Below, piece by piece: positions 2,933-31,436 of a DNA stretch of 50,704 bases. How positions within the stretch are numbered: position 1 is the first letter of the stretch; each line of letters starts with the position of its first letter. The translations under genes and the position numbers were made by a program. The stretch is taken from NCBI GenBank assembly GCA_944387505.1, contig CALXFG010000009.1:1-50704 (forward strand). The letters are read 5' to 3'. Below the pieces are notes generated by a model. The model was given only the letters and a program-made list of their open reading frames with translations, was not told the origin of the DNA and did not search any database. Source of the stretch: an uncultured Clostridia bacterium. Lineage in GTDB: Bacteria > Bacillota > Clostridia > TANB77 > CAG-508.

Positions 2933-3164
2933 GTTACTGTTCAGACCTTCTTTAGCTAAGAGGAATAATATGTTATCATTTTAGGGTTCTCGGCTACCCT
3001 TCAATTCCCGTTTAAGAAATTCTAATATCTAAATCGTAACGATACCCGGAAACAGGACCCTTTACGACTTATATATAAGAATTTCTAAAACGATTCCGGT
3101 CGCATTCGAACCCTAAAATGATAACATATTATTCCTCTTAGATGAAGAAAGTCTTAGCAGAAAC
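2933..3164 (+). repeat. 232-nt two-stem element, family 1, copy 1
   Basis: Lies between divergent leuS and the HD gene. Outer arms 2933-2989 and 3108-3164 are complementary, perfectly so over 2959-2989. An inner stem pairs 3011-3039 with 3062-3090 around the apical loop 3040-3061 (ACCCGGAAACAGGACCC). Internal loops are TCGGCTACCC... at 2990-3010 and CGATTCCGGTCGCATTC at 3091-3107. Core bases match copies at 19876 and 31205, whereas the outer arms differ but remain self-complementary. The remaining bases of the 2829-3217 gap show no other feature. Confidence 0.9.
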
Positions 3165-3217
3165 TAATCTTGAAATAAAAGGAGAAAAATGATAGAATGC
3201 ATAACGAGGTGAATATC

Positions 3218-3994
3218 ATGATTGATATACTAAGAGCAAAGAAAGTATTTGCAGAATATGTAAAAGCATATGATGCAAAAAATGATAAAATAAAAATGAA
3301 AATAGAACATATAGAAAGAGTTTCACAAGTGGCAAAAAAATTAGCAACAAAGTTAGAACTTGATGAGGAAGATATAAAATTAGCAGAATTAATAGGTTTA
3401 CTTCATGATATAGGAAGATTTGAACAAATAAAAAGATTTAACACATTTAATGATAGAAAAAGTGTTAATCATGGAGAATATGGTGTGCATGTGTTATTCA
3501 ATAAACAAGATGGAATGATTCGAAAATTTATAGAGGATAATCAATATGATCATATTATTAAAAATGCCATTTATTATCATAATAAAGATAAATTAGATAT
3601 CCCGGATAACTTAACAACTAGGGAATTATTACATATTAAAATCGTAAGAGATAGTGATAAGATTGATATATTAAATATATTAACATATGAAAAAAAGGAA
3701 ACTGCTTGGGAAAAAGCGGATTTATCAGATGATGTCATTACTGAAGAAATTTATAACGAATTTATGGAAAATGGAAGAATTGATTATCACAAGAAAAAAA
3801 CAAGTGCAGATAGTTTAGTAGGACACTTTGCATATATTTTTGACTTTAATTTTCCAGAAAGTATTCAATTTGTAAAACAACAAAATTATGTGGAAAAAAT
3901 ATATAAACGATTTGTATTCCATGATTCAAAAACAATGGAACAATATCAAAAGATATACAATAAAGTTCAAAATTATATGAAAACAATTTTATAA
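3218..3994 (+). CDS. HD-domain phosphohydrolase
   Basis: Metal-dependent hydrolase of the HD superfamily, probably acting on a nucleotide or phosphoester; substrate unknown. The early part contains IEHIERVSQVAKKLA followed by LLHDIGRFEQ, the conserved HD pair, then NHGEYGVHVL with another metal-type histidine, YYHNKDK, and IVRDSDKIDIL with the closing aspartate. That is the full H...HD...D pattern. The start chosen is ATG 3218 because GAGGTG sits six bases upstream; an upstream ATG at 3197 would add seven residues. The gene stands alone, downstream of the family 1 repeat. Confidence 0.85.
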   Translation: MIDILRAKKVFAEYVKAYDAKNDKIKMKIEHIERVSQVAKKLATKLELDEEDIKLAELIGLLHDIGRFEQIKRFNTFNDRKSVNHGEYGVHVLFNKQDGMIRKFIEDNQYDHIIKNAIYYHNKDKLDIPDNLTTRELLHIKIVRDSDKIDILNILTYEKKETAWEKADLSDDVITEEIYNEFMENGRIDYHKKKTSADSLVGHFAYIFDFNFPESIQFVKQQNYVEKIYKRFVFHDSKTMEQYQKIYNKVQNYMKTIL

Positions 3995-4142
3995 AAGATG
4001 GAATGAAAACAATGAGAGGGTTAAAATATTTTCATTAAACCATGCGTTTTATATAAAATATAAGAATGAATAGGAATAAAAATAATATTAAGAAATATTT
4101 TATTAGATTTGTACTATTTTCAGAAAGGAAAGAAAAACAAAA

Positions 4143-6137
4143 TTGAGCAAAAAATTAATCATAACAGAAAAGCCATCTGTGGCAATGGAATTTGCAAAAG
4201 CATTAAAAATCACAACGAGTAGAAAAAATGGTTACTTAGAATCCAACGATTGGATTATTACATGGTGTGTAGGACATTTAGTTACCATGAGTTATCCAGA
4301 AAAATATGATGAAAAATTAAAATTTTGGAGATTAGATACTTTACCATTTATTCCGAAAGAGTGGAAATATGAAATTATACCACAGGTACAAAATCAATTT
4401 AACATTGTACAACAATTATTGCAAAGAGAAGATATAGAAGAAATATATAATGCCGGAGACTCTGGAAGAGAAGGAGAATATATACAAAGACTTGTCTTTA
4501 TGATGGCAAAACCAAATCCAAAAGCAAAAATGAAAAGAGTATGGATAGATTCACAGACAGAAGAAGAAATTTTAAGAGGAATTCGAGAAGCAAAAGATAT
4601 GTCAGAATATGATAGTTTATCTGATAGTGCTTATTTAAGAGCAAAAGAAGACTACTTAATTGGAATTAATTTTTCTAGGTTATTATCTATCATATTTGGA
4701 AGAAGATTGGCACAAAATATTCATGAAGATAGAGCTTCTATTTCTGTAGGAAGAGTCATGACTTGCGTATTAGGAATGGTCGTATCTCGTGAAAGAGAAA
4801 TTCGAAATTTTGTGAAAACAAAATATTATAAAATTATGGGAGAATTTGGAGAAGAACAATCTTCTTTTAAAGCAGATTGGAAGGCAACAGAAAAATCGAC
4901 TGTATGGGAATCTCCTAAACTATATAATGAAACAGGATTCAAAAAAGAAAACGATGCGAAAGATTTTATTGCAAGTTTAAGTCATAAAAAAGCAGTTATC
5001 ACAGAATTAAAAAAATCAAAACAAAAAGAAAATGCACCATTGTTATTTAACTTAGCAGAAATCCAAAATGAATGTACCAAACGATTTAAAATCAAACCTG
5101 ATGAGACATTGGAGATTATTCAAAATCTATATGAGAAAAAATTAGTTACCTATCCTAGAACAGATGCGAGAGTATTATCAACAGCAGTTAGCAAAGAAAT
5201 TAATAAAAATTTAAATGGAATTGCAAAAGGTTGTAAAGACGAAGAAATACAAGGATATATTAAAAAAATGGTAGAAGAAAAGTATTCTACAAATTTAGCA
5301 AAAACAAAATATGTCAATGATAGTAAAATCACAGACCACTATGCCATTATTCCAACAGGGCAAGGATATGAAAATTTTAATAATTTACCACAATTACAAA
5401 AAGATATTTATTTAGTCATTGTAAAACGTTTCTTAGCCATTTTCTATCCACCAGCAGAATATAATAAAGTTCAATTAACAATTGAAGTAGAAATGGATAA
5501 AGAGAAAAAAGAAACGTTTACAACAAGTGGAAGAGTATGTATCAATCAAGGATTTTTAGAAATCTTAAAACCAATAGATAAAGAAAATAAAAAGAAGAAA
5601 TCCACAAAAGGTGAGCAAGATGTGGAAAATAAAGAGGAAGAAAACAAAAATAGTGAAAATAAAACAACTGATTTAGAAATCTTAAAGAAATTGAAAAAAG
5701 GACAAGAAATATTGATTAAGAATTTCGAAATCAAAGAAGCAGAGACCTCACCACCAAACAGATATAATTCAGGTTCCATTATTCTAGCGATGGAAAACGC
5801 AGGAAAGCTAATCGAAGAAGAGGAACTAAGAGAACAAATAAAAGGTGCTGGAATTGGAACAAGTGCCACAAGAGGAGAAATTATAAAAAAATTAGAAAAG
5901 ATAAATTATATAGAAATTAATAATAAAACTCAAATTATTACACCAAGTCAAAAAGGAGAATATATCTATGATATTGTCATGCAATCTATGCCAGATATGT
6001 TAAATCCAAAATTGACAGCTAGTTGGGAAAAAGGCTTAGATATGGTAGCGAAAAAAGAAATTAAGCCAGATGAATTTATGACAAAATTAGAGAATTATAT
6101 CAATAGTAAATTTAACAAACTAGTAGTGAAAATGTAA
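4143..6137 (+). CDS. topB: DNA topoisomerase III (type IA)
   Basis: Type IA topoisomerase that cuts one strand through a 5'-phosphotyrosine link and decatenates DNA. 664 residues. The Toprim domain starts at LIITEKPSVAMEFAKAL and includes NAGDSGREGEY, where the DxGREGE spelling is the one I associate with Bacillus-type TopB. The catalytic tyrosine is Y337 in TYPRTDAR. A lysine/glutamate-rich linker around residues 480-510 (KENKKKKSTKGEQD) interrupts the core. There is no C-terminal zinc-finger domain, consistent with TopB rather than TopA. The start is TTG 4143, preceded by AAAGGAAAG. It appears monocistronic. Confidence 0.93.
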   Translation: MSKKLIITEKPSVAMEFAKALKITTSRKNGYLESNDWIITWCVGHLVTMSYPEKYDEKLKFWRLDTLPFIPKEWKYEIIPQVQNQFNIVQQLLQREDIEEIYNAGDSGREGEYIQRLVFMMAKPNPKAKMKRVWIDSQTEEEILRGIREAKDMSEYDSLSDSAYLRAKEDYLIGINFSRLLSIIFGRRLAQNIHEDRASISVGRVMTCVLGMVVSREREIRNFVKTKYYKIMGEFGEEQSSFKADWKATEKSTVWESPKLYNETGFKKENDAKDFIASLSHKKAVITELKKSKQKENAPLLFNLAEIQNECTKRFKIKPDETLEIIQNLYEKKLVTYPRTDARVLSTAVSKEINKNLNGIAKGCKDEEIQGYIKKMVEEKYSTNLAKTKYVNDSKITDHYAIIPTGQGYENFNNLPQLQKDIYLVIVKRFLAIFYPPAEYNKVQLTIEVEMDKEKKETFTTSGRVCINQGFLEILKPIDKENKKKKSTKGEQDVENKEEENKNSENKTTDLEILKKLKKGQEILIKNFEIKEAETSPPNRYNSGSIILAMENAGKLIEEEELREQIKGAGIGTSATRGEIIKKLEKINYIEINNKTQIITPSQKGEYIYDIVMQSMPDMLNPKLTASWEKGLDMVAKKEIKPDEFMTKLENYINSKFNKLVVKM

Positions 6138-6140
6138 AAA

Positions 6141-6188
6141 AATGCAAATAGTCGGCTATATAGCTTAGTTGACTGTTTGCATTAAAAA
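6141..6188 (-). terminator. Rho-independent terminator of the SDR gene
   Basis: AATGCAAATAGTC (6141-6153) pairs with GACTGTTTGCATT (6171-6183). Read on the minus strand the stem is followed by seven Ts at the end of topB, so it fits the SDR transcript. On the plus strand no T run follows. Confidence 0.7.
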
Positions 6189-6229
6189 GTTTAGCTAGAT
6201 AAATTTTTATTAAAATGTACGAATAAAAT

Positions 6230-7129
6230 TTAAACAATGGTACCACCATTAACATGAATAATTTGACCAGTGACATAGCGAGAATCATCAGAAGCTAAAT
6301 ATAAATAAGCAGGGGCAAGTTCAAAAGGCTGACCTGCTCTTTTTAATGGCGTTTCTGTACCAAAAATAGAAACTTCTTCTGCCGTAAAAGAAGCAGGTAT
6401 TAGTGGTGTCCAAATAGGACCTGGTGCTACAGCATTTACACGGATTTTGCTATCTGCCAAAGATAAAGCCAATGACTTTGTAAAAACAGTAATGGCACCT
6501 TTGGTAGAAGAGTAATCAATTAAATTTTTCTTTCCAGCAAAAGCAGTAATAGAAGAAGTATTAATAATACTAGCATTTGCTTCCAAATAAGGAAGTACGG
6601 CTTTTGTTAAATAGAAAAATGAAAAAATATTGGTTTCAAATGTATTTTTTAATTGTTCTGCTGTAATATCTAATATACTATTTTGCGAAAATTGCACACC
6701 ACAATTATTTACTAAGATATCCACTTTTCCAAAAGTTTTCAGAGTTTCATTAATGACTTGTGTAGAACTTTCTTCTTTTCGTAAATCACATGCAATTAAT
6801 AAACATTTTCTACCATAATATTCAATAACTTCTTTAGTATAGTTAGCATCTTCATGTTCATTTAAGTAAGCAATGACAATATCGCAACCTTCTTTTGCAA
6901 ATAAAATACTAACAGCTCTACCGATACCACTATCACCACCAGAAATGATAGCAACTTTCCCTTGAAGTTTTCCACTTGGTATATCATTTTGATTATCAAA
7001 AATAGGAAGTGGATTCATTTGGTTTTCTATTCCTGGTTGTACGGACTGATGTTGAGGAGGAAAAGTAATAGGTTGTTGTTTACAAACTGTTTCAAAGTTG
7101 TAATAGGGAATAAATGGATAATCATTCAT
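6230..7129 (-). CDS. Short-chain dehydrogenase/reductase
   Basis: NAD(P)-dependent oxidoreductase of the classical SDR family; substrate unknown. A roughly 55-residue N-terminal extension rich in Pro/Gln precedes the Rossmann fold. The nucleotide motif is GGDSGIGRAV, then NNCGVQ, catalytic Ser in INTSSITAF and YSSTK for the Tyr-Lys pair. PGPIWTPLIPA closes the active site. The extension and motif spelling resemble the general-stress SDR group (Bacillus YhdF/YhxC-like, YghA-like) from memory. The start ATG at 7129 has AAAGGAG upstream. It is divergent from mfd. Confidence 0.88.
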   Translation of the reverse strand: MNDYPFIPYYNFETVCKQQPITFPPQHQSVQPGIENQMNPLPIFDNQNDIPSGKLQGKVAIISGGDSGIGRAVSILFAKEGCDIVIAYLNEHEDANYTKEVIEYYGRKCLLIACDLRKEESSTQVINETLKTFGKVDILVNNCGVQFSQNSILDITAEQLKNTFETNIFSFFYLTKAVLPYLEANASIINTSSITAFAGKKNLIDYSSTKGAITVFTKSLALSLADSKIRVNAVAPGPIWTPLIPASFTAEEVSIFGTETPLKRAGQPFELAPAYLYLASDDSRYVTGQIIHVNGGTIV

Positions 7130-7246
7130 AATAACATTCTCCTTTATACAATAGTTTCCATAGTGGTTATTATATGCAATTCTTTTATATTTATGCCTAT
7201 AAATAAGTCGATATTAAATAATAAAGAAATATATTTACAAAAACTA

Positions 7247-7275
7247 TTTATATTTTCTAAAAAAAGTAGTATAAT
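7247..7275 (+). promoter_or_regulatory. Putative sigma-A promoter of mfd
   Basis: TTTATA (7247-7252) and TATAAT (7270-7275) with a 17-bp spacer, about 40 bp before the mfd start. The -35 is weak, the -10 is consensus. Confidence 0.5.
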
Positions 7276-7317
7276 ATAGAAATCAGATTTATGCTTCAAG
7301 GAAGGAATGCAAGTAGA

Positions 7318-10300
7318 ATGAATACCATATTAGGAGAACTTGGAAAATCTCAAAAGTTTGTAACATTGGTAAATCAAATAGAAAAAGAAAAAAGTCCGAT
7401 AATGTTATCGGGCTTAACTGGCGTGGGAATGGTAGAGTTATTAGTTGGTATCAATGAATATGCCAAAAGACCAATTTTAATTGTTACATACAATGAAATT
7501 CAAGCAAAACAAATATCAGAAAATATAAAAGCATTTATAGATAAAGGAGATATTTTCCCTAAAAAAGAAATTGTCACTTATGACTATATTGCAGAAAGTA
7601 AGGACTTACCTTATGAAAGAATAGAAGTTTTAAGTAAAATCAAAGAAAAAAGAAATCCAATCATAGTAACAACGATAGAAGCTTTAATGCAAAAATTACC
7701 ACCAAAAGAAGTACTGTTTAAAAACTTATTACATTTCAAAGTAGGAGATATCTATTCATTAGAAGATATAAAGAAAACACTAGTAAATCTAGGATATGTG
7801 AGATGTGACTTAATAGAAGGAAGAGGTCAATTTAGTATTAGAGGTGGCATTTTAGATATTTCTGTTTCTGACAAAATAGGTGTGAGAATTGAATTCTGGG
7901 GAGATGAAGTGGACTCTATTAGAAATTTTGCCATTGTTAGCCAAAGGTCAATCAATACTTTAGAAAAAGTAGAAATTTATCCAGCACATGAATACATATT
8001 AGAACAATCCATAGAACAAGTCTGCAAAAATATCAGAAATTTAAGTGTAACTGAAGCACAAAAAGAAATTTTAGAAGAAGATATAGAGCAAATTATTGCT
8101 GGAAACTATATTAGTAAAATTGATAAATATTTTGATTGTTTTTATACAAATTTTTCTACATTATTAGATTACTTATCAGATAAATATATTATTGCATTAG
8201 ATGAAGAAAGAAAAATAGAGCAAAGAACAGAAAATATTAAACAAGATAGAAAAAATCTAATCGATGCTTTGGTGGAAAAAGAAAAAATGATTCCACAAGC
8301 ACTAGAAGATAATGTCGAATATGAAGAAATCGAAGATATCTTAGAAATTGGAAAAAGAAATGTAATCTATTTAGAAAAACAAGATAGTGTAACCAATAAA
8401 CAAGCAGAAAAATATGTTTTTGAATATAGGGAAGTCAATTTCTATAAAAGTGAGATTGAAAACTTATTTGAAGAATTAAAAGAAGCCTTAAAGCAAAAAA
8501 AGAGTGTATATGTATTAGTTGAGAATAAGGAAAAGGCGAAAAAACTAAAGGAAATATTAGAAAAAGAAGAAATTATTTGTAAGATAGAAGAAAAACTAGA
8601 CAAAACCATTGTCGTAAAAACAGTAGAAAAAGTCGTTACTATTGGAATTGGAAAAATATCTGCAGGATTTGAAAACTATGAAATTAATCAATTGGTTATT
8701 TCAGCAGATGAATTAATTAGTGGAGAAAAGAGAAAAAGAAAAGCTGTTCATTCTGCCTACACAGAAGGGGAAAAGGTTGTATTTGCTGATTTAAAAATAG
8801 GAGATTATGTGGTTCATAAAACCTATGGAATTGGTATCTATATAGGTGTCAATACCATTAAAGCAGATGGAACGATTAAAGACTATATCAAAATCAAATA
8901 TAAAAATGATGATATTTTGTATGTACCAACAAACCAAATGGACATGATTCGAAAATATGTTGGTGGAGATAAAATTAATCCAAAAATCAATCGATTAGGT
9001 AGCAAAGAATGGGAAAATACCAAAACAAGGGTTAAGAAAAACTTAAGAGAAGTGGCAACAGAGTTAATAGAGCTATATGCCAAAAGAGAAAAATCACAAG
9101 GTTTTGCTTTTAGTAAAGATACCCCTTGGCAAAATGAATTTGAAGCAAAATTTCCATATCAAGAAACAGATGACCAATTACGTTGTATAGAAGAAGTTAA
9201 AAAAGATATGGAATCTAATAGACCAATGGATAGATTATTATGTGGTGATGTTGGATATGGTAAAACAGAAGTAGCCATAAGAGCAGCATTTAAGGCTGTG
9301 ATGGACCAAAAACAAGTAGCGTATTTAGCACCTACAACCGTTTTAGCAGAACAACAATATCAAGAATTTAAAGAAAGAATGAAAGATTATCCAATCAAAG
9401 TAGAAATTTTGAATAGATTTAAGTCTGCAAAATATCAAAAAGAAGTTATCAAAGGTTTGAAATTAGGAGAAGTCGATGTTGTGGTTGGAACCCATAGAAT
9501 TCTTAGCAAAGATGTGGAATTTAAAGATTTAGGCTTATTAATTATCGATGAAGAGCATCGATTTGGTGTAAAAGATAAAGAGAAAATCAAACAATACAAA
9601 ACCAATGTAGATGTTTTAACAATGACAGCAACACCAATTCCAAGAACTTTACACATGTCTATTGTAGGTGTAAGGGATATGTCTGTTATCTATGAACCAC
9701 CACATAATAGAAGACCTGTACAAACTTATGTATTAGAATATGATAGAGAAGTGATAAAAGAAGCGATTACAAAAGAATTAGAAAGAGACGGGCAAGTATT
9801 TTACATCTTTAATAATGTGGAAAATATCCAAAGAAAAGCGGATGAAATATCAAGACTAGTGCCGGAAGCAGAAGTTTCTTATGCCCATGGACAAATGTCA
9901 GGAAATCAGATTGAAGAAATCATGAATGATTTTATACAAAAGAAATCAAATGTGTTAGTTTGTACAACGATTTTAGAATCTGGAATTGATATTCCAAATG
10001 CCAATACGATTATAGTTGAAAATGCAGATAGAATGGGATTAGCACAGTTATATCAAATACGAGGAAGAGTAGGAAGAAGTGATAGGCAGGCTTATGCATA
10101 TATTACCTATAAACGAGATAAATTGCTATCAGAAGTAGCAGATAAGAGGTTAAAAGCCATAAAGGAATTTACAGAATTTGGTTCAGGATTTAAAATCGCG
10201 ATGCGTGATTTAGAAATCAGAGGAGCAGGAAGTTTACTTGGGGAAATTCAATCAGGACATTTAGAACAAGTAGGATATGATACCTATTGTAACTTGTTAG

Positions 10301-10833: not shown

Positions 10834-10875
10834 AATAATAATGATAATGAATATTAAATAGAAAGAGGGAAAAAC

Positions 10876-11994: not shown

Positions 11995-12046
11995 AAATAT
12001 AATAAAATTTATAAAAATGGAAATTATATTTATTAAAGAGCGAAAA

Positions 12047-12085: not shown

Positions 12086-12104
12086 TATAAAACTGGAGGC
12101 ATTT

Positions 12105-19875: not shown

Positions 19876-20107
19876 GTTACAATTCAAATCTTTCTCATTA
19901 AGAGGAACAATATGGTAGATTTTTAAAGTTCTCGGCTACCCTCCGATTCCCGTTTAAGAAATTCTAATATCTAAATCGTAACAATACCCGGAAACAGGAC
20001 CCTTTACGACTTAGCTATAAGAATTTCTAAAACGACTCCGGTCGCATTCGAACATTTAAAAATCTACCATATCGTTCCTCTTAATGAGGGAAGGTCTGAA
20101 CTATAAC
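19876..20107 (+). repeat. 232-nt two-stem element, family 1, copy 2
   Basis: Same layout as the copy at 2933. The core begins CTCGGCTACCCTCCGATTCC, the inner stem is TTTAAGAAATTC.../...GAATTTCTAAAA, the apical loop is ACCCGGAAACAGGACCC, and the right internal loop is CGACTCCGGTCGCATTC. The outer arms (AGAGGAACAATATGGTAGAT and its near-perfect complement ending CGTTCCTCTT) differ from copy 1 but still pair, with about two defects. It lies between divergent xre and the M23 gene. The rest of 19749-20307 holds only promoters; a 41-codon frame from 20083 starts inside the arm and is not credible as a gene. Confidence 0.9.
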
Positions 20108-21346: not shown

Positions 21347-21349
21347 TGG

Positions 21350-21430
21350 TTACAATTCACAGCTAATAGTATTTTATATCTCAACATTCTAATTAGTATC
21401 TATTTAAAGCTGTGAATTGTAAGTTTTTTG
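21350..21430. repeat. Long-loop inverted repeat upstream of adhE
   Basis: TTACAATTCACAGCT (21350-21364) and AGCTGTGAATTGTAA (21408-21422) are a perfect 15-bp inverted repeat around a 43-nt AT-rich loop, followed by GTTTTTTG. It could be a second terminator or a decayed hairpin element. Confidence 0.55.
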
Positions 21431-21577: not shown

Positions 21578-24190
21578 ATGAGTGATAACGTAAATGAAGA
21601 GCAAGAAATTAAACAAATGATTGATGATTTAGTACAAAAGGCAAAAGTAGCATCTCAAGAATATTTGAAATTAGACCAAGAAACAGTAAACAATATTACA
21701 AAAGCAATGGCAATGGCAGGTCTTGAGAATCATATGAGATTAGCAAAAATGGCGGTTGAAGAAACCAAAAGAGGAATTTATGAAGACAAAATTACAAAGA
21801 ATATGTTTGCAACAGAATATATATATCATAGTATCAAATATGAAAAAACAGTCGGTATTATAGATGAAAATATAGAAGACGATTATGTAGAGATTGCAGA
21901 GCCAATTGGAATTATAGCAGGAGTTACACCTGTTACTAATCCAACATCAACAACCATGTTTAAATCTATCATATCTGCAAAAACGAGAAATGTTATTATA
22001 TTTGGTTTTCACCCATCTGCACAAAAATGTAGTGTAGAAGCAGCTAGGATTTTAAGAGATGCAGCTATAAAGGCAGGTGCACCAGAAAACTGTATTTTAT
22101 GGATTGAAAAACCAAGTATTACAGCGACAAGATTATTAATGAACCACCCAGATGTTAACTTAATCTTAGCAACAGGTGGGACAGGTATGGTTAAATCAGC
22201 ATATTCTTGTGGAAAACCAGCATTAGGTGTAGGACCTGGAAATGTTCCATGCTATATTGATAAAACAGCAAAATTAGAAACATCAGTAAATGATTTAGTC
22301 ATGTCAAAAGCATTTGACAATGGTATGATTTGTGCATCAGAACAAGCGGTTATTATTGATAAAGAAATCCAAAAAAGATTTGAAGAGTTAATGAAAAAAG
22401 CAGGTTGCTATTTTGTAAATAAAGAAGAAAAAGAAAAACTAGCAAATAGTATGTTTGAAAAATTAGAAAATGGAGATTACAAATTAAAATCACATGTACC
22501 AGGACAATATCCTCATACAATAGCCAAAGATGCTGGATTTGAAATTCCAGAAGATACAAAAGTAATCGTTGTGCCTGAAACAGGAGTTGGAAAAGAATAT
22601 CCATTCTCAAAAGAAAAATTAAGCCCAGTATTAACATATTATGTTGTAAAAGATGAAAATGAAGGAATACCATTAGCAGAAAAATTACTAGAATTTGGTG
22701 GATTAGGACATTCAGCTGTTATTCATTCTGAAAATAAAGATACCATTTTAAGATTTTCAGAAACTATGAAGGCAGGAAGAATTATCGTAAACTCTCCATC
22801 AACACATGGTGCAATTGGTGATATATATAATACTAATATGCCATCATTAACATTAGGTTGTGGTTCATTTGGTGGAAACTCAACAACAGCCAATGTATCA
22901 TCAGTAAACTTAATTAATATAAAAAGAGTTGCAAATAGGAGGGTTAATATGCAATGGTTTAAAGTTCCAGAAAAAATATATTTTGAAGCAGGTTCAATTG
23001 CTTATTTAGAGAAAATGCCAAATATTGAAAGAGCATTTATTGTAACAGATCCAGGAATGGTAAAATTAGGATATGTAGATAAAATCTTATATCACCTAAG
23101 AAATCGACAACATTATGTGCATTCAGAAATCTTTAGTGAAGTAGAATCAGACCCATCATTTGATACCATCATGAAAGGTGTTGAAGCTATGAAAAACTTC
23201 AAACCAGATGTCATTATTGCGTTAGGTGGAGGAAGTCCAATTGATGCAGCAAAAGGAATGTGGTTATTCTATGAACATCCAGAAGCAGATCCAGAAGGAT
23301 TAAAATTAAAATTTATGGATATCAGAAAACGTACATATAAATTCCCTAAATTAGGAGAAAAATGTCAAATGGTAGCTATTCCAACAACATCAGGTACAGG
23401 TTCAGAGGTAACATCATTTGCCGTTATCACAGATAAAGAGAAAAACAAAAAATATCCATTAGCAGATTATGAATTAACACCAGATGTAGCAATTGTAGAC
23501 CCAGACTTAGTTATGAGTTTACCAAAATCTATTACAGCAGATACAGGTATGGATGTGTTAACACATGCGTTAGAAGCATATGTTTCAAACATGGCATCAG
23601 ATTATACAGATGGACTAGCTGAAAAAGCAGTAGAATTGGTATTCCAATACTTAGAACAAGCATATGATGATGGAACCAATAAATTGGCTCGTGAAAAAAT
23701 GCATAATGCAAGTACAATTGCAGGTATGGCTTTCACAAATGCCTTTTTAGGCGTTAACCATTCAATGGCACACAAAATTGGTGCAGAATTCCATTTACCA
23801 CATGGAAGAATTAATGCGATATTATTACCATATGTGGTAAGATATAACGCTACAAAACCAACAAAATTTGTTTCATTCCCTAAATATGAATATTTCATTG
23901 CTGATAAAAAATATTCTGAAATAGCAAAAAAAGCAGGATTAAAAGCAAAAACAGTTGAAGAGGGAATTAGTAGCTTAATTGAAAAAATTAAAGAAATGAA
24001 TGAACATATGAATATTCCAAAATCATTTAAAGATGCTGGAATTGATGAACAAGACTTTTTGGCAAAAGTGGACATGTTGGCAGAAAGAGCTTTTGAAGAT
24101 CAATGTACAACGGCTAACCCAAGGGTACCACTAGTGTCAGAAATAAAACAAATCCTATTAGATAGTTATTATGGAAATGAAGTAAAATAG
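21578..24190 (+). CDS. adhE: Bifunctional acetaldehyde/alcohol dehydrogenase
   Basis: Reduces acetyl-CoA through acetaldehyde to ethanol, regenerating two NAD+ per acetyl unit; forms filaments (spirosomes) in known relatives. 870 residues. Residues 1-440 are the CoA-acylating aldehyde dehydrogenase, with catalytic C252 in NGMICASEQAV. From about 465 on is the iron-dependent alcohol dehydrogenase (IIALGGGSPIDAAKGMW, TSGTGSEVTSFAVI, DVLTHALEAYVS, HSMAHKIGAEFHLPHGRINA) carrying the iron-binding histidines. ATG 21578 is chosen because AAAGGAGG sits seven bases upstream; ATG 21557 would have no site. It consumes the acetyl-CoA made by pflB nearby. Confidence 0.97.
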   Translation: MSDNVNEEQEIKQMIDDLVQKAKVASQEYLKLDQETVNNITKAMAMAGLENHMRLAKMAVEETKRGIYEDKITKNMFATEYIYHSIKYEKTVGIIDENIEDDYVEIAEPIGIIAGVTPVTNPTSTTMFKSIISAKTRNVIIFGFHPSAQKCSVEAARILRDAAIKAGAPENCILWIEKPSITATRLLMNHPDVNLILATGGTGMVKSAYSCGKPALGVGPGNVPCYIDKTAKLETSVNDLVMSKAFDNGMICASEQAVIIDKEIQKRFEELMKKAGCYFVNKEEKEKLANSMFEKLENGDYKLKSHVPGQYPHTIAKDAGFEIPEDTKVIVVPETGVGKEYPFSKEKLSPVLTYYVVKDENEGIPLAEKLLEFGGLGHSAVIHSENKDTILRFSETMKAGRIIVNSPSTHGAIGDIYNTNMPSLTLGCGSFGGNSTTANVSSVNLINIKRVANRRVNMQWFKVPEKIYFEAGSIAYLEKMPNIERAFIVTDPGMVKLGYVDKILYHLRNRQHYVHSEIFSEVESDPSFDTIMKGVEAMKNFKPDVIIALGGGSPIDAAKGMWLFYEHPEADPEGLKLKFMDIRKRTYKFPKLGEKCQMVAIPTTSGTGSEVTSFAVITDKEKNKKYPLADYELTPDVAIVDPDLVMSLPKSITADTGMDVLTHALEAYVSNMASDYTDGLAEKAVELVFQYLEQAYDDGTNKLAREKMHNASTIAGMAFTNAFLGVNHSMAHKIGAEFHLPHGRINAILLPYVVRYNATKPTKFVSFPKYEYFIADKKYSEIAKKAGLKAKTVEEGISSLIEKIKEMNEHMNIPKSFKDAGIDEQDFLAKVDMLAERAFEDQCTTANPRVPLVSEIKQILLDSYYGNEVK

Positions 24191-24231
24191 AATAACATGA
24201 TGAAAAAAGTAACAGTAAAGGAAGGAATGCA

Positions 24232-25539
24232 ATGATATTTTCACAAAAACGAGTTAAAAAAGTATTAGAAACAGTTGAAAACGCAAAAGGAAAAAAATTA
24301 AGCCCAGCAGAAATTAATAAAATTGCAAAAGAAATGGTAAGACAGATAGAAGAATGCCCAGAATTATTTGAAGAAGTTTTGAAACAATCCTATGAAAAAG
24401 GATTAGAAATATTACCACCTGACTTAAGAGCAGAATTACCAGCAGAATTGATAAAAGAGGGATCTAAAAGTGATAAAGTACCGGATGAAAATGTGGTTAA
24501 GGCAACAAAAGCAATAGCAGAAAATTTACCAGATGATACGGTAGTTCAATTGGCAAGAAAAGCTGAGTTAGGAATAAAAGAAAAAAATGCGATAGTAGAA
24601 GCAGGTATATCTGATGAAGAAAGAAAAAGAGAAGAGAAAGTAAGTATTGCTATTGATAATTTGCATAAAATATACGAATCTTTGGAAAGTTTAATTAGTG
24701 ATAGAGATATAGTGCAGATGATATCTAAAATCATGAATAATCTTCCAAAAACGAACCAATCAGAACAACTAAAAATTAATCAATTAGTGAACAATATCAT
24801 TGCAAAACAAATGATGCAAAATTATTCGAGAATTGCTACAATCAAATTCCAATCTTTTTATGCAATTCGAACACCAGAGGAAATGTTTGCTATGAATATT
24901 CCACAATTGATTAAATGTGAATATAAAAAAATTCCAACAAAAGTTAGAGAACAGAATAAAAAAGAATATAAAGAAGAAGATTGCCGAAGAGAATTACTTG
25001 GTATTATAGCCAATCATGTTGCAACAAAATACATACAAGATGGATCCAAAAAAATAGTCATCCCACAATCAAAAGAAATGAAAGACATAAGCGAAGGAGA
25101 GGAACAATATTTTTTAGAGCAAATAAAACAAACAGTAGAGGCGTTAAATGGAAATATAGATTTATTGACAGAGATAGATATAAAAGAACAAATCAGAGGA
25201 AATGTAAAAGCTGCTGAAAAAGTGGAAGAATATGTTGCTACAATGGACCAATTACCAGCAGATACCAAAGAAACTTTTATTCAACAAGGCCAAGAAATTA
25301 TGTCAGATAAAAATTTGCTAGAAATTAGTGATTATTGTAATCAAGTGGGATTATATCAAGCATTAGCTAGTTTAGGAGTAGATAAAGCAAAAAAATTAGT
25401 AGACACAGTAATTCTTAGCATAGAAAAAAGAAAGCACAAAATAGTTAGTAGAGAGAATACGCCTAAAGTAGTAGAAACAAAATTTGAAAAAAAGAATAAG
25501 GATTCAAAAACACCACTTGACGATAATGATGCAAGATAA
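24232..25539 (+). CDS. Hypothetical all-helical protein
   Basis: 435 residues, no family recognised. Predicted almost wholly alpha-helical and acidic/lysine-rich. The first 100 residues include LSPAEINKIAKEMVRQIEEC and repeated short PDDL/PDDT-type turns; no signal peptide, membrane segment or catalytic motif is seen. The C-terminus is a charged tail (KNKDSKTPLDDNDAR). AAGGAAGG precedes the ATG. It starts 41 bp after adhE without a terminator, so it may be read from the adhE promoter. A scaffold or regulatory protein is conceivable, but function is unknown. Confidence 0.75.
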   Translation: MIFSQKRVKKVLETVENAKGKKLSPAEINKIAKEMVRQIEECPELFEEVLKQSYEKGLEILPPDLRAELPAELIKEGSKSDKVPDENVVKATKAIAENLPDDTVVQLARKAELGIKEKNAIVEAGISDEERKREEKVSIAIDNLHKIYESLESLISDRDIVQMISKIMNNLPKTNQSEQLKINQLVNNIIAKQMMQNYSRIATIKFQSFYAIRTPEEMFAMNIPQLIKCEYKKIPTKVREQNKKEYKEEDCRRELLGIIANHVATKYIQDGSKKIVIPQSKEMKDISEGEEQYFLEQIKQTVEALNGNIDLLTEIDIKEQIRGNVKAAEKVEEYVATMDQLPADTKETFIQQGQEIMSDKNLLEISDYCNQVGLYQALASLGVDKAKKLVDTVILSIEKRKHKIVSRENTPKVVETKFEKKNKDSKTPLDDNDAR

Positions 25540-25578
25540 TAAATTAAGAATTTAGAACTTTAGAGACAGTGAAGTGAA

Positions 25579-25622
25579 CCCTTCTTATTAAACAGAAAAG
25601 TTTAATAAGGAGGGATATTTTT
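25579..25622 (+). terminator. Terminator after the helical protein gene
   Basis: CCCTTCTTATTAAAC pairs with GTTTAATAAGGAGGG (one G-T wobble) around AGAAAA, followed by ATATTTTT. Confidence 0.75.
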
Positions 25623-25738
25623 GGTTAATAGAAAAATCATTTTTTCTTTTGAAAATATAAAATTTTTCCTATACAAAGAGGATTTATAAGTTCATAAAAA
25701 AAACACAATATAAATATTTTTTAGAAACAATTATGGGA

Positions 25739-25756
25739 TAGTATATGCATATACTA
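25739..25756. promoter_or_regulatory. 18-bp perfect palindrome upstream of the alarmone synthetase
   Basis: TAGTATATGCATATACTA lies 44 bp before the start codon. It could be an operator or a small leader hairpin. Confidence 0.4.
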
Positions 25757-25800
25757 AATAGGAACAAACATAAATATCCTATGAGGAGTTGTGATGAAAT

Positions 25801-26463
25801 ATGAAAAAAAATAAAGTGAAAGAACTAGGAATTGTGGAGATGAAGAACTTTTTGAGTTATGATGAAAAAATAGAGGAAAAGACAAACACATTTGAAAAAA
25901 TAATGACCATTTATGAAATGGCTATTACAGAGTTAGAAACCAAAATGAATATATTACAAAAAGAATTTAAAGTATTTTATAATTATGATTTAATTGACCA
26001 TATCAATACAAGGATAAAACAACCAGATAGTATTGTAAATAAAATGAAGAAAAAAGGATATAAGCTTACATATAAAGAAATGATAGAAAATATCAATGAT
26101 ATTGCAGGTGTTCGAGTGATATGTCAGCTAAAAGATGACATATTTAAAATAAGAAATTTAATTGAAGAAATACCAGGAATGCAAATTGAAAAAGAAAAAG
26201 ACTATGTAAATCATCCAAAAGAAAGTGGATATGCAAGTTATCATATGATTGTAAAAGTACCAGTAACCTTATCAAAGCAAACCATATATGTAAAAGTAGA
26301 AATACAGATACGAACAATGGCAATGGATTTCTGGGCTAGTCTAGAACATAAAATGAAATATAAAACAGATAAAGAAGTGAATAAGAAAACTTCAAAAGAA
26401 TTAGTCAACTATGCAAAAATTGTGAATAAAATGGATAATAAGCTCATGTTAATGAATAATTAA
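25801..26463 (+). CDS. Small alarmone synthetase (RelQ-like GTP pyrophosphokinase)
   Basis: Makes (p)ppGpp from ATP and GDP/GTP. 220 residues, synthetase domain only, with no HD hydrolase, TGS or ACT domain, as in RelQ/YjbM and RelP/YwaC. Signature stretches are NINDIAGVRVICQLKDDIF, DYVNHPKESGYASYHMIV and VEIQIRTMAMDFWASLEHKM. The N-terminal helix and helical C-terminus fit the tetrameric SAS fold. GAGGAG precedes the start. It has no (p)ppGpp-degrading capacity of its own. A family 2 repeat follows the stop. Confidence 0.92.
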   Translation: MKKNKVKELGIVEMKNFLSYDEKIEEKTNTFEKIMTIYEMAITELETKMNILQKEFKVFYNYDLIDHINTRIKQPDSIVNKMKKKGYKLTYKEMIENINDIAGVRVICQLKDDIFKIRNLIEEIPGMQIEKEKDYVNHPKESGYASYHMIVKVPVTLSKQTIYVKVEIQIRTMAMDFWASLEHKMKYKTDKEVNKKTSKELVNYAKIVNKMDNKLMLMNN

Positions 26464-26477
26464 AAAATTGAATTTGA

Positions 26478-26780
26478 GGAACATTGGGGACGGACTCATT
26501 TTTCCCTTTTTTGTATTGTAAGACACTTAAAAAATATAGAATATAAAGTCATTACACAATTTTGTATAAGCTAAATTTTCATAGAAATTCTTTAATAAAA
26601 AAGTGAGCCTCTCTCATTGTTGCTATAAATCATCAGCAAAATGAGCTTTCCTCACTTTTTTATTTTAGAATTTCTAAATTCAAATTTAGATACGCAAAAT
26701 TGTTTCATTTTTTTATATTCTATATTTTTTCTTATTTCTAATTAACAAAAAGGGAAAAATGAGTCCGTCCCCAATGTCCC
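26478..26780. repeat. REP-pair (BIME/MITE-like) element, family 2, copy B
   Basis: The core 26486-26772 is 287 bp and, by eye, the exact reverse complement of 15507-15793. Outside the core the flanks differ (GGAACATT here), marking the mobile unit. It lies between the alarmone synthetase and dnaG. A degenerate relative (AACGTCCCCAAAAGGAC) follows at 26789. The rest of 26464-26898 is AT-rich with no gene. Confidence 0.9.
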
Positions 26781-26898
26781 AAACAGAAACGTCCCCAAAA
26801 GGACATTTTTTTTAAATAAAGAGAAGGATTTATGTAAAATACGTCGAATAATATAATTATGTATAGTTGTGTGAAATATTTTAAGAAAGGAGAAAATA

Positions 26899-28689
26899 AT
26901 GGCAAGATATAGTGATGAAATCATTGATGATGTAAGGCAGTCTAATGATATTGTAGATGTGATATCACAATATGTAAGACTAAAGAGAAGTGGCAGAAAT
27001 TATTTCGGTCTATGTCCTTTTCACAATGAAAAATCACCTTCATTTTCAGTATCTCCAGAAAAACAAATATTTCATTGCTTTGGTTGTGGCGTTGGTGGAA
27101 ATGTATTTACATTTTTGACAAAGATTGAAGGTATCAACTTTGTGGAGGCGGTTCAACAGTTAGCAGAAAGAGCTAATATACAATTACCAACATTAGAAAA
27201 TAATGTAGATTCAGCAAAAGAGGCTTTAAAAGCGAAGGTATATAAAGTAAATGAATTTACAGCTAAATATTATCATGAAAATTTATATAGACCAGAGTCT
27301 AAAATCGCTCAAGAATACATAAAGAAAAGAAAATTATCAAATGAAACATTAAAATCTTTTCAAATTGGATTTTCAGGAAAATTTGATGAATTATACAAAG
27401 AATTAAAAAAACAAGGATTTGAAGATAGGGAAATTTTAGAGTCTGGCTTAGTGAATAAAAATGAAAGAGGTCAATTTATTGATCGATATCGTAACAGATT
27501 AATGTTTCCTATATGTGATGTAAGAGGAAGAGTGATTGCGTTTGGAGGAAGAGTGTTAGATGATTCCAAACCTAAATACATAAACTCTCCTGAAAATGTT
27601 GTATATAGTAAGGGAAGACACCTATATGGATTAAATGTTGCAAAAAAATATGATATCAAAAAAAGACTACTGATTGTAGAAGGATATATGGATGTGGTTT
27701 CTCTTCATCAAAGGGATATTCATAATGTAGTTGCCTCTTTAGGAACAGCACTAACCCAACAACAGGGATATTTGCTTCGAAATAATACAGAGCAAATTAT
27801 TCTAAGTTATGATTCAGATGAAGCTGGACAAACTGCCAAAGTAAGAGCAATGGAAATATTGCAAAATATGGGGTGTGATATTCGAGTTTTACAAATGGAA
27901 GGTGCAAAAGACCCTGATGAATATGTTATTAAATTTGGAAATGCAAGATTTCAAAATCTAGTTGACAAAGCAATTTCCGTTATTGAATTTAAAGTCAAAA
28001 TCTTAAGACAATCTTTAAATCTAGAAAGTACCAATGACAAAATAAAGTTTTTAAACGAAATAGCAAAATTAATTTCAAAAATTGATAACAGCATGGAAAG
28101 AGAAGTCTATATAGAAAAAATAGCTAAAGAATATGATGTTTCAAAAGAAGCAATTTATGCAGAAGTAAACAAATTGACATATAAAGAAAGTAAAGATGAA
28201 AAAGTATTAAGCAAAACAAGACCAGTTGTAAGACACATAGAAAAAAAAGAAACAGACAATGTATCAGAAGCCACAAAACGAAGAGAAAATACAGTTTTAG
28301 CGATTTTACTTTCAGGAGATAGAAATATTTATGAAATTATCAAACAAAATATTGCCATTAAAGACTTCAAATATGAAATAGATAAGAAGATTGCTGAAAA
28401 ATTGTATGAAGAATTTGAAAATGGAAATAGTAATATAAATAGCATCATTGATGAACTATCAGAAGAAGAACAAAATCATATAACTATGATAATGGCAGAA
28501 GATTATGGAATCGATGATGTAGAAAAAGCAATTGATGATATCATACAAAGTTATGAAAAAGATAAATTAAATGAAAGAAAACTCGAAATTTTGGAATTAC
28601 TAGAAGAAAATACAACTGAAGAAAATAAAAAGAAAGAATTGGAAAAAGAGCTAAATGATATTATTATCAGATTAGCAAAAATTAGATAG
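26899..28689 (+). CDS. dnaG: DNA primase
   Basis: Synthesises RNA primers for replication. 596 residues. The N-terminal CHC2 zinc ribbon has C39, H42, C60 and C63 (LCPFHNEK and FHCFGCG). The Toprim catalytic core follows, with [15 protein letters not shown] and [13 protein letters not shown], and the helical C-terminal region binds helicase. AAAGGAG lies upstream. Its stop is 14 bp before the rpoD start, the conserved dnaG-rpoD arrangement. Confidence 0.97.
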
Positions 28690-28703
28690 GGGTGAATAGA
28701 AAA

Positions 28704-29936
28704 ATGGCAAAACAAGAAGAAAATAAACAAGAAGAATTAAAACAAGAAGAAAAAATCGAAAAAATTGAAAAAGTAAGAAAAAAGGCACATAAGAAAGCAG
28801 AAGAGGTAGAACAAGCTAAAAAAGAAGAACATATAGAAGAATCAGAAGAAACAAAAAAATTAAAAGAAGAAAAAGTAAATAATATATTAAAAAAAGCAAA
28901 AGAAAAAGGAAAAATTACCTATGGGGATTTGGCATCTGAATTAGATGATGTAAATCCAGACCAAATTGATAAAGTTTTTGATGCTTTTGAAGAATTAGGC
29001 GTTGATTTATTACAAGATGATATGGATGAAGAACCTGATATTGAAGACTTAAAAGAAGTTGAGGATCTAAAATTAGACCAAATTACAGATACCAGTTATG
29101 AAGGAATCAATGTAGATGATCCTGTCAGAATGTATCTAAGAGAAATTGGAAGAATTCCACTTTTAACTTATGATGAAGAATTAGATTTAGCCAAGAAAGT
29201 ACTAGAAGGTGATGAAGAAGCAAAACAAAAATTAGCAGAATCAAATTTAAGATTAGTGGTAAGCATTGCTAAAAAATATGTGGGAAGAGGTATGCTATTC
29301 TTAGATTTAATTCAAGAAGGAAATATGGGATTAATCAAAGCTGTTGAAAAATTTGACTATACAAAGGGATTTAAATTTAGTACGTATGCAACTTGGTGGA
29401 TTAGACAAGCGATTACAAGAGCTATTGCAGACCAAGCAAGAACCATTAGAATTCCTGTACACATGGTAGAAACTATCAATAAATTAATTAGAACGTCTAG
29501 ACATCTATTACAACAATTAGGTAGGGAACCAACCCCAGAAGAAATTGCGGCTGAAATGGAAATACCAGTGGAAAAGGTAATAGAAATTCAAAAAATTGCA
29601 CAAGACCCAGTATCTTTGGAAACACCAATAGGTGAAGAAGATGATAGCCATTTAGGTGATTTTATACAAGATGATGATTCTCCAGCACCTCAAGATTCTG
29701 CAGCTTATACAATGCTTAGAGAACAATTAGAGGAAGTTATGAATACTTTAACACCAAGAGAGGCAAAAGTATTAAAATTAAGATTTGGATTAGAAGATGG
29801 TAAATCAAGAACACTAGAAGAGGTTGGAAGAGAATTCCAAGTAACTAGAGAAAGAATTAGACAAATTGAAGCAAAAGCTTTAAGAAAATTAAGACATCCT
29901 AGTAGGAGTAAGAAGCTTAGAGATTACATGGGATAA
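28704..29936 (+). CDS. rpoD: RNA polymerase primary sigma factor (sigma-70/A)
   Basis: Housekeeping sigma factor. About 410 residues. A Lys/Glu-rich low-complexity head (residues 1-70) precedes region 1.2 ([20 protein letters not shown]). Region 2 ([40 protein letters not shown]) binds the -10. Region 3 contains [19 protein letters not shown], and region 4 ends [23 protein letters not shown] 28704 is chosen because AGGGGTGA overlaps the stop of dnaG at the right spacing; GTG 28692 is too early. Matches the TTGACA/TATAAT promoters found in this window. Confidence 0.96.
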
Positions 29937-29943
29937 AATTGAA

Positions 29944-30057
29944 AGATAACCGCCATTTGGCGTTGTTGACCTAAATTTTAAATTTAATTCAACGTACAAA
30001 GAGTACGTCTCATAAATTTTAAATTTGGTTGCCTAGCCAAATACCGATTCTCTTCCA
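29944..30057. repeat. Nested inverted-repeat structure after rpoD
   Basis: An outer stem (ATTTGGC with GCCAAAT) encloses an AT-rich inner stem (ACCTAAATTTTAAATTTA with TAAATTTTAAATTTGGT) capped by ACGTAC-AAAGA-GTACGT. No T run follows, so it is not a standard terminator. It resembles the two-stem layout of the repeats at 2933 and 43640, but the sequence is different and only one copy is seen. Confidence 0.55.
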
Positions 30058-30089
30058 AATTAAATTATAATAAAATATTGGAGGATAGT

Positions 30090-31154
30090 ATGGAGCAGTT
30101 AGTTGATTTTTGGAACAGACTAACATCTATAGAAATTGTAGATATTATAATAGCGATTGGAATTATTGTGTTTTTTAGAATATTTAGTGGTACATTTTCC
30201 TATATGATTATAAAAATATTTAAAATAAAAAGTAAAAAGGCAAAAGAAATAAAAGAAAGTGCGTTTTTTAAGCCACTAAAAGTATTTTTTATCATTTTAG
30301 GAATTTACATAGCCATTGTATTTTTAAGAGTACCTTTACAAATAAATGAACAAGTAATGGATATCGTGACAAAAGCTTTTAAAATTATTAGTGTAATAGA
30401 AATTGCGGTAGGATTAGCAAATAGTTTTACTTCAAAAACAATCTTAGGAAAAAAATTAAGAAAAAGCTTAAGCGAGAAAATGGATGATACCGTATTTGAA
30501 TTTGTATTAAAAATTGTAAGAGTGTTAATTTATATCATTGCTATATTTTTAGTATTAGCAATCTTAGAAATTAATCTAACAGGACTCATTGCAGGTTTAG
30601 GCTTAAGTGGTGTCATTGTAACACTTGCTGCACAAGATACTGCAAAAAACTTATTTGGTGGAGCAATGATTTTCATTGATAAACCATTTGTGGTTGGTGA
30701 TTGGATTGAAATGGATAATTATGAAGGAACCATTGAAGACATTACTTTTAGAACAACGAGAATTAGAACATTTGAAAATGCATTAGTTAATATCCCAAAT
30801 GCTATGATTGCAGATGCTTCTGTAACAAATTGGAGCAAAATGGAAAAAAGAAGATATAAAACAAATTTATGTGTAGAATTAGACACACCTTTAGAAAAAT
30901 TAGAATTATTAAAAGCAAGAATTGAAAAAATGTTACAAGAAAGAGAAAGTGTTTTTGACGATTCAATTATTGTAAGATTTGATCAAATAACAGATAATGG
31001 AATTAATCTTCTAATTTATACATATACAAATTCTGTTAGTTATGCAAGTTATTTAAAAGAAATAGAAGACACCAATATGAAAATCATGAAAATATTAAGA
31101 GAAGAAAATATTGAATTAGCTTATGATACAAAAACGGTCTATGTGAAACATTAA
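30090..31154 (+). CDS. MscS-family mechanosensitive channel
   Basis: Membrane channel releasing solutes on hypo-osmotic shock. 354 residues. Several N-terminal membrane segments (IVDIIIAIGIIVFFRIF, FFIILGIYIAIVFL, then one near VLIYIIAIFLVLAIL) precede the pore helix LIAGLGLSGVIVTLAAQDTA. The beta domain includes FVVGDWIEMDNYEGTIEDI and NIPNAMIADASVTNWS, and the alpha/beta C-terminus ends in KTVYVKH. ATG 30090 is favoured because GGAGGAT precedes it; TTG 30078 overlaps that site. Confidence 0.92.
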   Translation: MEQLVDFWNRLTSIEIVDIIIAIGIIVFFRIFSGTFSYMIIKIFKIKSKKAKEIKESAFFKPLKVFFIILGIYIAIVFLRVPLQINEQVMDIVTKAFKIISVIEIAVGLANSFTSKTILGKKLRKSLSEKMDDTVFEFVLKIVRVLIYIIAIFLVLAILEINLTGLIAGLGLSGVIVTLAAQDTAKNLFGGAMIFIDKPFVVGDWIEMDNYEGTIEDITFRTTRIRTFENALVNIPNAMIADASVTNWSKMEKRRYKTNLCVELDTPLEKLELLKARIEKMLQERESVFDDSIIVRFDQITDNGINLLIYTYTNSVSYASYLKEIEDTNMKIMKILREENIELAYDTKTVYVKH

Positions 31155-31161
31155 AAAAATT

Positions 31162-31192
31162 ACTACACTAAATGTTAGTGTAGTTTTCTTTT
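31162..31192 (+). terminator. Terminator of the mscS gene
   Basis: ACTACACTAA pairs with TTAGTGTAGT around ATG, followed by TTTCTTTT. Confidence 0.85.
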
Positions 31193-31204
31193 ATTTGTAT
31201 TGCA

Positions 31205-31436
31205 GTTATTATTCAGACTTTTTCATCTAAAAGGAGCAATTGGTTATATGATTAAGGTTCTCGGCTACCCTCCAATTTCCGTTTAAGAAATTCTAATATC
31301 TAAATCGTAACAATACCCGGAAACAGGACCCTTTACGACTTAGATATAAGAATTTCTAAAACGATTCCGGTCGCATTCGAACACTTAATCATATAACCAA
31401 TTGCTCCTTTTAGATGAAAAAGTCTAAACAGTAGCA
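31205..31436 (+). repeat. 232-nt two-stem element, family 1, copy 3
   Basis: The core is nearly identical to the copies at 2933 and 19876, in the same orientation. The outer arms (AAAAGGAGCAATTGGTTATA and its complement) are different again, yet pair almost perfectly from 31205-31261 to 31380-31436. It lies between the mscS terminator and the response-regulator promoter and fills most of the 31155-31533 gap. Confidence 0.9.

Follow-up and report, generated by a model that had tools for sequence, protein, structure and literature searches.

Hairpin elements in the window

The DNA considered here, referred to throughout as the window, is a 50,704-nt stretch of contig CALXFG010000009.1 (GenBank assembly GCA_944387505.1) from an uncultured Clostridia bacterium. 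It carries three copies of a hairpin element, in which a conserved core is set between two long, self-complementary outer arms. The original prediction, which was made from the letters alone, had placed three 232-nt copies here in the same orientation, with near-constant loops and with outer arms that pair within each copy and differ between copies; all of this was confirmed. The orientation used in that prediction is taken as the plus strand. A fourth element lay outside the prediction. It belongs to the same superfamily and has another apical domain, and its ends read TTTCC-R-TTCCGATTTCC, not GTTAC. The features are as follows.

2926..2932: left target-site duplication of copy 1, TAATCTT (7 of the 8 bp typical of the family)
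2933..3164, plus: copy 1, type A, 232 nt; arms of 57 and 57 nt, core at 2990-3107
2933..2946, plus: left terminal inverted repeat (TIR) of copy 1, IS66-type, GTTACTGTTCAGAC
2990..3107, minus: core of copy 1, proposed structured RNA
3165..3171: right target-site duplication of copy 1, TAATCTT
19876..20107, plus: copy 2, type A, 232 nt; right TIR at 20094-20107
19932..20049, minus: core of copy 2, proposed structured RNA
31205..31436, plus: copy 3, type A, 232 nt; degenerate TIRs at 31205-31218 and 31422-31435
31261..31378, minus: core of copy 3, proposed structured RNA
43639..43863, plus: fourth element, type C (apical CGAGCCTCTCGCTGTTCGCGCTTCCTCA); arms of 55 and 55 nt
43694..43808, minus: core of the fourth element; the minus strand folds 7.8 kcal/mol better than the plus strand

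Each copy forms one long hairpin. In the list of open reading frames (ORFs) of at least 80 aa, none overlaps the four copies, and the window contains no tRNA. Target duplications were inspected at copies 2 and 3, and none was seen.

Strand preference of the core

Across the family the core measures 113-140 nt, and its apical domain occurs in several types (A, B and C). Strand tests were performed on representatives, comprising 53 of 117 unique type-A cores and, in a later test, 33 of 163 type-A and 19 of 29 non-A elements. In the inner stems of the 53 non-redundant type-A cores, mismatches read on the plus strand comprised 56 A·C and 7 G·U. As A·C on the plus strand is G·U on the minus strand, this asymmetry suggests that the core fold is selected on the minus strand. 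The minus strand of the core also folded better in 53 of 53 type-A representatives, with a median advantage of 8.6 kcal/mol, and did so in each of the thinned sets; it was likewise favoured in all of the 33 type-A and 19 non-A representatives of the second test. For the 117 unique cores, RNAalifold gave −12.7 on the plus strand and −33.2 on the minus strand. Among whole hairpins, 20 of 21 folded better on the minus strand.

On this strand, 98.5% of core pairing cells (32 representatives) were paired, whereas shuffles reached 83.2% and sliding the partner gave no more than 54.4%; core covariation was 0.437, against 0.136 in shuffled sequences, with the qualification that the shuffles leave phylogeny in and that the covariation statistics ignore kinship. 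Changes on both sides occurred in 18 of 30 core pairs (32 sequences). The basal loops were found to pair mutually on the minus strand, at columns 9-10/120-121 and 13-14/115-116, with covariation at 10:120 (16 C-G, 9 U·G, 5 U-A and 2 others) and at 14:115 (25 C-G, 5 U-A and 2 U·G). These basal pairs surround an invariant GA that faces mostly a GUA strand, a double loop suggestive of a G-bulged, loop-E-like motif. The core loops are nearly invariant while the stems vary, so that the conserved unpaired bases noted in the original prediction were borne out. A suggested pairing of GACC in the apical loop with GGTC in the right internal loop found no support: the positions concerned are (nearly) invariant and carry no information, and the right-loop bases covary instead with the other basal loop. 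Overall, the core looks like an RNA fold under selection, on the strand opposite to the one on which it had been drawn.

Outer arms and inversion of the core

The outer arms, mostly about 30-70 bp in length, behave differently from the core. Counts were made on elements with an arm score of at least 30 and arms under about 100 nt (102 of 142 elements, later 129 of 192). Within a copy the median Watson-Crick fraction was 0.97 (102 elements), a value inflated by extending the arms as far as pairing held, whereas a comparison of different copies over the initial 40 nt of the left arm gave a median ungapped identity of 0.425. If an RNA fold were selected in the arms, G·U on the selected strand should exceed A·C. 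No such excess was seen, the ratio of G·U to A·C being 61:65 in 102 elements and 75:88 in 129, and the folding energies of the plus and minus strands showed a median difference of 0.00 (P = 0.27, 102 elements). Twelve independent close pairs of elements displayed 26 paired double changes, where about 1.1 would be expected, with 2 unpaired double and 32 single changes, and in one pair, L277/L294, a one-base arm indel is mirrored. The arm covariation is thus symmetric between strands and needs no RNA. The selection for a fold originally read from these elements therefore stands for the core, with its strand asymmetry and 98.5% pairing, and falls for the arms. Conversely, template-switch homogenisation, which had been offered as the alternative, suits the outer arms and fails at the core, where the strand asymmetry appears.

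The whole core was found inverted between its arms at 5 of 20 orthologous sites, or in 14 of 40 pairs (26 in the same orientation), under a strict criterion that required each flank to align over no less than 150 nt with an identity of 75% or higher. Looser flank criteria gave 57 same-orientation, 32 flipped and 2 mixed pairs, with flank identities of 77-98%. In the inverted pair L277/L294, the flanks are 98.0% and 93.7% identical. One five-member site group had one orientation in two assemblies and the opposite orientation in three, a split that makes random misassembly less likely. The two orientations of a site come from different assemblies and not from one population.

In the portions of two published accounts used here, template switching is described as homogenising the arms of inverted repeats and inverting their spacers (PMC8604942), and as maintaining RNA hairpins (PMC8794818). 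As arm homogenisation together with spacer inversion is the documented footprint of template switching, we infer the same cause for the inversion of the core; the arms were most likely homogenised at the DNA level by arm-to-arm copying during replication of this kind.

At six loci (L021, L032, L095, L106, L217 and L220) the core is framed by longer palindromes whose arms hold a GAGCCTCTTTCAC-like apical motif of another type, which suggests insertion of a core into a hairpin or exchange of loops. IS1272 is reportedly able to replace inverted repeats, and the study in question (PMC5678879) might bear on arm exchange.

Ends, target duplications and a partner insertion sequence

The ends of the elements read GTTAC-N-R-TTCAGAC. 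In the genome to which the window belongs (G000; 1.86 Mb in 65 contigs), the TIR GTTACNRTTCAGAC was found, allowing one mismatch, at 32 places, of which nine are contig ends. The sequence behind those nine is of two kinds, represented five and four times, which correspond to the two ends of a complete 1672-bp insertion sequence (IS) in genome G006; the nine contig ends look like the two ends of one collapsed IS. The IS of G006 encodes an IS66 transposase (PF03050, E = 9.5e-29) and is flanked by an exact 8-bp direct repeat, ATAAAATC. CAATATTT flanks a second copy, which is located in G106. The IS loci, L060 and L214, each carry a single transposase of 496-497 aa and 8-bp direct repeats. The TIR GTTACNRTTCAGAC is thus common to the hairpin elements and the IS66-family IS, with a shared end of about 13-16 bp. 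The original prediction had held that a match to a known IS end would count against a selected fold; the ends are indeed those of an IS66-family element, which explains the mobility of the hairpin and not its core.

A GTTANNRTT sequence lies near the left outer end in 52 of 100 high-scoring elements, and GTTA-type sequence occurs at both ends in 50 of 192 elements. Of these 50, 28 displayed a target duplication matching at 7 or more of 8 bases, compared with a mean of 0.865 and a maximum of 4 in 200 partner shuffles. An empty site for copy 1 was identified in the relative G027 (L304), which has a single TAATCTT where the window has two, and G067 has a similar empty site at this position. This comparison covered 14 of the 30 loci retrieved, the window's own among them; the other 13 showed no core in 12 cases and a different element nearby in one. 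Only in G027 and G067 is the flank directly joined to the gene, most of the others having diverged flanks.

When 192 elements were compared with the IS by blastn, the ends matched over 10-24 bp, mostly 13-15 bp, and elsewhere matches were short and weak (best E = 6e-5). As only these end segments match, the hairpin element is no deletion derivative of the IS, and it has neither a transposase gene nor a recognisable IS66 interior. No PF01609 transposase was found in G000. The shared ends, the target duplications and the empty site together indicate an element resembling a miniature inverted-repeat transposable element (MITE), probably served by IS66, and on the evidence of these sequences an IS66-family transposase probably moves it in trans. 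It is a MITE in a working sense, with an interior that was not found to derive from the parent IS.

Several other arrangements of ends were observed. A solitary IS66-type end (GTTACAATTCACAG) lies in the window at 21349-21362, where no hairpin core was detected. G000 also contains two solo palindromes of 58 and 40 bp (C59:3789-3846 and C16:16137-16176, loci L055 and L057), which are barely more than two IS66-type ends; the flanks of the second match at 6 of 8 bases. At L182 (5708-5849) the left half of the core is missing, the arms are very long and nearly perfect, and the GTTAC ends are intact. At L224 (1449-1695), L227 (231-479) and L238 (near 1449), cores are framed by other palindromic repeats with GGGGACACATC or GGGGACGTTTC, so that IS66 ends are not the sole ends. 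One IS66 end, at L060 (2572-2580) and at five of the nine TIR-bearing contig ends of G000, contains TTATCCACA, presumably a DnaA-box-like sequence.

Distribution of the family

By blastn, G000 contains 15 distinct copies (a sixteenth row is copy 3 against its own reverse strand). Matches were found in 12 of 55 genomes, G000 included, all within the genus, and in none of 20 genomes from other genera. The original prediction had proposed a covariance-model search of related genomes, and this did recover further copies: within the genus, a model (R1) built from 36 copies on the plus strand detected the family in 119 of 194 genomes, G000 included, with at most 16 candidates scored per genome. Order-wide, with at most 8 candidates per genome, it was detected in 110 of 385 genomes and 16 of 48 sampled genera, 15 of the 16 belonging to the same family. 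Because the filters of both scans were stricter, genomes in which the copies are weak may have gone undetected. When 20 selected genomes were scored more deeply, one gave 68 hits, which is an upper bound.

Hairpin architecture was present in 21 of 26 weaker loci (L215-L240); in the remaining five the element detector gave nothing or a spurious element. Scanning named genomes with a pattern yielded 103 stretches, each from an organism named Clostridia bacterium, Clostridium sp. or Eubacteriales bacterium, and several of the genome names point to goat, buffalo, chicken or rabbit samples. One search took 80 of these 103 loci, and later analyses took all loci collected by then. Among 192 elements, the median size was 232 bp (10th-90th percentile 185-283, maximum 434). 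Plasmid and phage collections gave no blastn match with one copy as the query, and a core-pattern scan of viral contigs found none.

Rfam release 15 gave no family at gathering score, in the window or in the other loci searched. Sub-gathering matches occurred in 14 loci (six at E up to 5, eight at E up to 2), under the names mir-367, Corona_pk3, MIR2646, MIR9486, SNORD44 and CRISPR-DR45. The strongest was to MIR2646, in L175 (E = 4.8e-12, 65.7 bits) and L224 (E = 1.6e-5, 40.3 bits), against a gathering score of 245; in L175 it is read as the long hairpin itself. In the open-access literature we recognised no paper describing this hairpin family, which is not proof that none is in print.

Gene context and orientation

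The elements lie between genes; among 123, a single one falls inside an ORF. Among 163 elements for which both neighbours were called, 106 lie between co-directional, 43 between divergent and 14 between convergent genes; for comparison, 432 intergenic gaps of the same loci included 82 divergent and 46 convergent. Of the 106 co-directional contexts, 76 have the plus strand as the sense strand and 30 the minus strand (P = 9e-6). The candidate RNA strand is therefore mostly anti-sense to its tandem neighbours, which points to a stand-alone RNA and not a leader of the flanking genes. As the bias persists even though cores invert, it is likely kept by selection or by direction-dependent inversion. 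Replication was considered as its cause at divergent gene pairs, where the surrounding genes agree with the core in 17 cases and disagree in 12.

Promoter-like scores, based on a consensus sequence, were in excess pointing away from the element on both sides (1.28 and 1.09, 174 elements). Within the arms they were 0.28 and 0.31 above shuffles (129 elements), with no difference between strands.

The genes adjoining the window copies are unrelated, encoding among others an HD-domain protein, an M23 peptidase, an MscS channel and a response regulator, as fits insertion and not a regulon. At 405-2894 on the minus strand of the window are two adjacent ORFs, of which the upstream one, of 155 aa, matches the N-terminal part of a class I tRNA synthetase only; this gene may therefore be frameshifted or mis-assembled.

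Interpretation

We consider it probable that these observations have a joint explanation, in which the elements are non-autonomous, MITE-like hairpins served by IS66, with arms homogenised as DNA and a core that is RNA-like on the minus strand. An IS66-family transposase would recognise the ends in trans and move the element. Arm-to-arm copying of DNA through template switching would keep the outer arms complementary, and the same process would invert the core between them at a fixed site. The core most likely encodes a stand-alone, structured small RNA that the element carries.

The simplest competitor is that palindrome homogenisation accounts for everything, the whole element, core included, being a selfish MITE with no RNA function. 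For the outer arms this is fully adequate, given the symmetric mismatches, the excess of paired doubles, the inversion of the core and the mirrored indel, and template switching is documented both for arm copying with spacer inversion (PMC8604942) and for RNA hairpins (PMC8794818), in the portions of those sources drawn on above. It predicts, however, neither a strand asymmetry nor preserved unpaired loops, and both are found in the core, so that we regard it as improbable. Could the asymmetry itself be mutational, arising for example from transcription- or replication-associated deamination? The A·C excess on the plus strand equals the C-to-T and A-to-G products expected on the minus strand, and the cores are biased in orientation. 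Yet the outer arms, with the same exposure, show no asymmetry in mismatches or in energy, and a mutational origin seems very unlikely. An equally remote prospect is a cis-regulatory RNA on the plus strand, such as a leader, attenuator or terminator of the downstream gene. The plus strand is indeed co-directional with most tandem genes and the elements are intergenic, but mismatches and folding energies already contradict this in favouring the minus strand in every core representative, orthologous cores invert, and the genes beside the window copies are unrelated.

More serious, although still unlikely, is the proposal that the core acts as a strand-specific hairpin of single-stranded DNA bound by a protein, as is the case for integron attC sites or IS200/IS605 ends. 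The element is mobile, DNA tolerates G·T pairs, and folding of three copies as DNA also preferred the strand of the proposed RNA. Against this, the IS66-type ends and 8-bp duplications point to a transposase that we take to be a DDE enzyme, acting on double-stranded ends, and the GA/GUA basal motif is an RNA-like module. Moreover, the plus strand is mostly the coding one in tandem contexts, and if genes follow replication the minus strand would not be the lagging-strand template. On balance we infer RNA rather than single-stranded DNA for the core. The inversion of the core could alternatively be the work of a site-specific recombinase or of RecA recombination between the arms, as in an inverton. 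Whole-core inversion at orthologous sites with both flanks aligned is what such a mechanism would give; however, the arms differ widely between copies, leaving only the ends and an AT box beside the core as common sites, and arm homogenisation accompanies the inversion. Recombination therefore seems doubtful, if the least doubtful of these alternatives.

Several results weigh against the joint explanation that we prefer. The ratio of A·C to G·U in the core shrinks as the set of representatives is thinned, to 22:4 (22 representatives), 13:4 (12) and 10:4 (11), so few independent changes carry the asymmetry, and kinship also enters the covariation statistics given above. The whole hairpin of L217 is slightly more stable on the plus strand. 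In three copies, DNA folding parameters prefer the proposed RNA strand as well, so that a strand-specific fold of single-stranded DNA could produce the same asymmetry. Among 174 elements, inward-directed promoter-like scores were not in excess (0.00 on one side and 0.19 on the other), so no promoter can be assigned to the minus strand. The absence of an Rfam family at threshold counts in the same direction, and, as model R1 was made on the plus strand and palindromes match the reverse strand too, hit counts per genome are upper bounds. Among the arms, two of the twelve close pairs have mostly single changes (3:0 and 7:1), and an indel between L112 and L191 lies in one arm and is not mirrored. 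A clear GTTA end is missing in 48 of 100 high-scoring elements, and only 2 of 18 genomes show an IS66 transposase, a scarcity plausibly due to the collapse of multicopy ISs in assemblies.

As to what the core RNA would do, we would guess, tentatively, that it serves the element by binding a protein or by acting in trans. A broader and similarly speculative picture is that of a transposable, invertible RNA gene: a superfamily of structured, stand-alone RNAs with exchangeable apical domains, which travels through a family of gut Clostridia by means of borrowed transposase ends, and for which inversion between arms that correct themselves toggles the direction relative to host genes. If so, each insertion would be a potential on/off switch for the RNA. 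The elements constitute a large, unnamed family of RNA-like cores that are mobile and flip in place. They also serve as a warning that covariation in long hairpins alone is no proof of RNA structure. Within a single 230-bp element, the strand test (G·U versus A·C) offered here allows template switching and selection for an RNA fold to be told apart.

Comparison with known systems

The IS66-family IS (PF03050), with the same ends as the hairpin element, is its autonomous partner at L060 and L214; the hairpin differs in having no transposase gene or recognisable IS66 interior. Among bacterial MITEs mobilised by a resident IS, RUP, which is served by IS630-Spn1 in pneumococcus, provides a close parallel: it too is a short, non-autonomous, intergenic and multicopy element that shares terminal repeats with a full IS (PMC2229807). 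The hairpin elements share only about 13-16 bp with IS66, and they have a conserved, strand-specific, RNA-like core in several types, whereas RUP, in the passages of that source concerned with it, is without other signatures of structure or function. The same passages describe ERIC/IRU and Correia (NEMIS) sequences as short repeats (about 107-155 bp) that adopt stem-loop forms as RNA; the orientation of ERIC matters for its effect on mRNA, and RNase III processing has been proposed for Correia (PMC2229807). As described there, these act within the mRNA of a neighbour, unlike the hairpin element, whose RNA strand is mostly anti-sense, whose core inverts and whose arms are hypervariable.

The bcr repeats of the Bacillus cereus group are comparable in length (100-400 bp), and bcr1 shows signs of mobility and is present in tens of copies per genome, but in the portion of the source that treats them their mobility is tied to TTTAT motifs and not to an IS66 end with variable 8-bp duplications (PMC6542083). 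The REP system, as outlined in part of PMC3733652, consists of a 20-40 bp palindrome with a GTAG/CGTC-type tag and a Y1 (RAYT) transposase. The present elements do not conform to it, having a median length of 232 bp and often IS66 ends; the tag and a Y1 transposase were not searched for. Invertons resemble the hairpin elements in that both orientations occur at the same site (5 of 20 orthologous groups), although no search for a recombinase was made. Template-switched inverted repeats share both arm homogenisation and spacer inversion (PMC8604942, PMC8794818); the cases in the portions used are yeast genes with spacer changes of 2-5 bp, and RNA genes, whereas the segment inverted in the hairpin elements is a conserved core of about 118 bp. 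Compared with known MITEs, what is new in these elements is the selected RNA-like core and its inversion.

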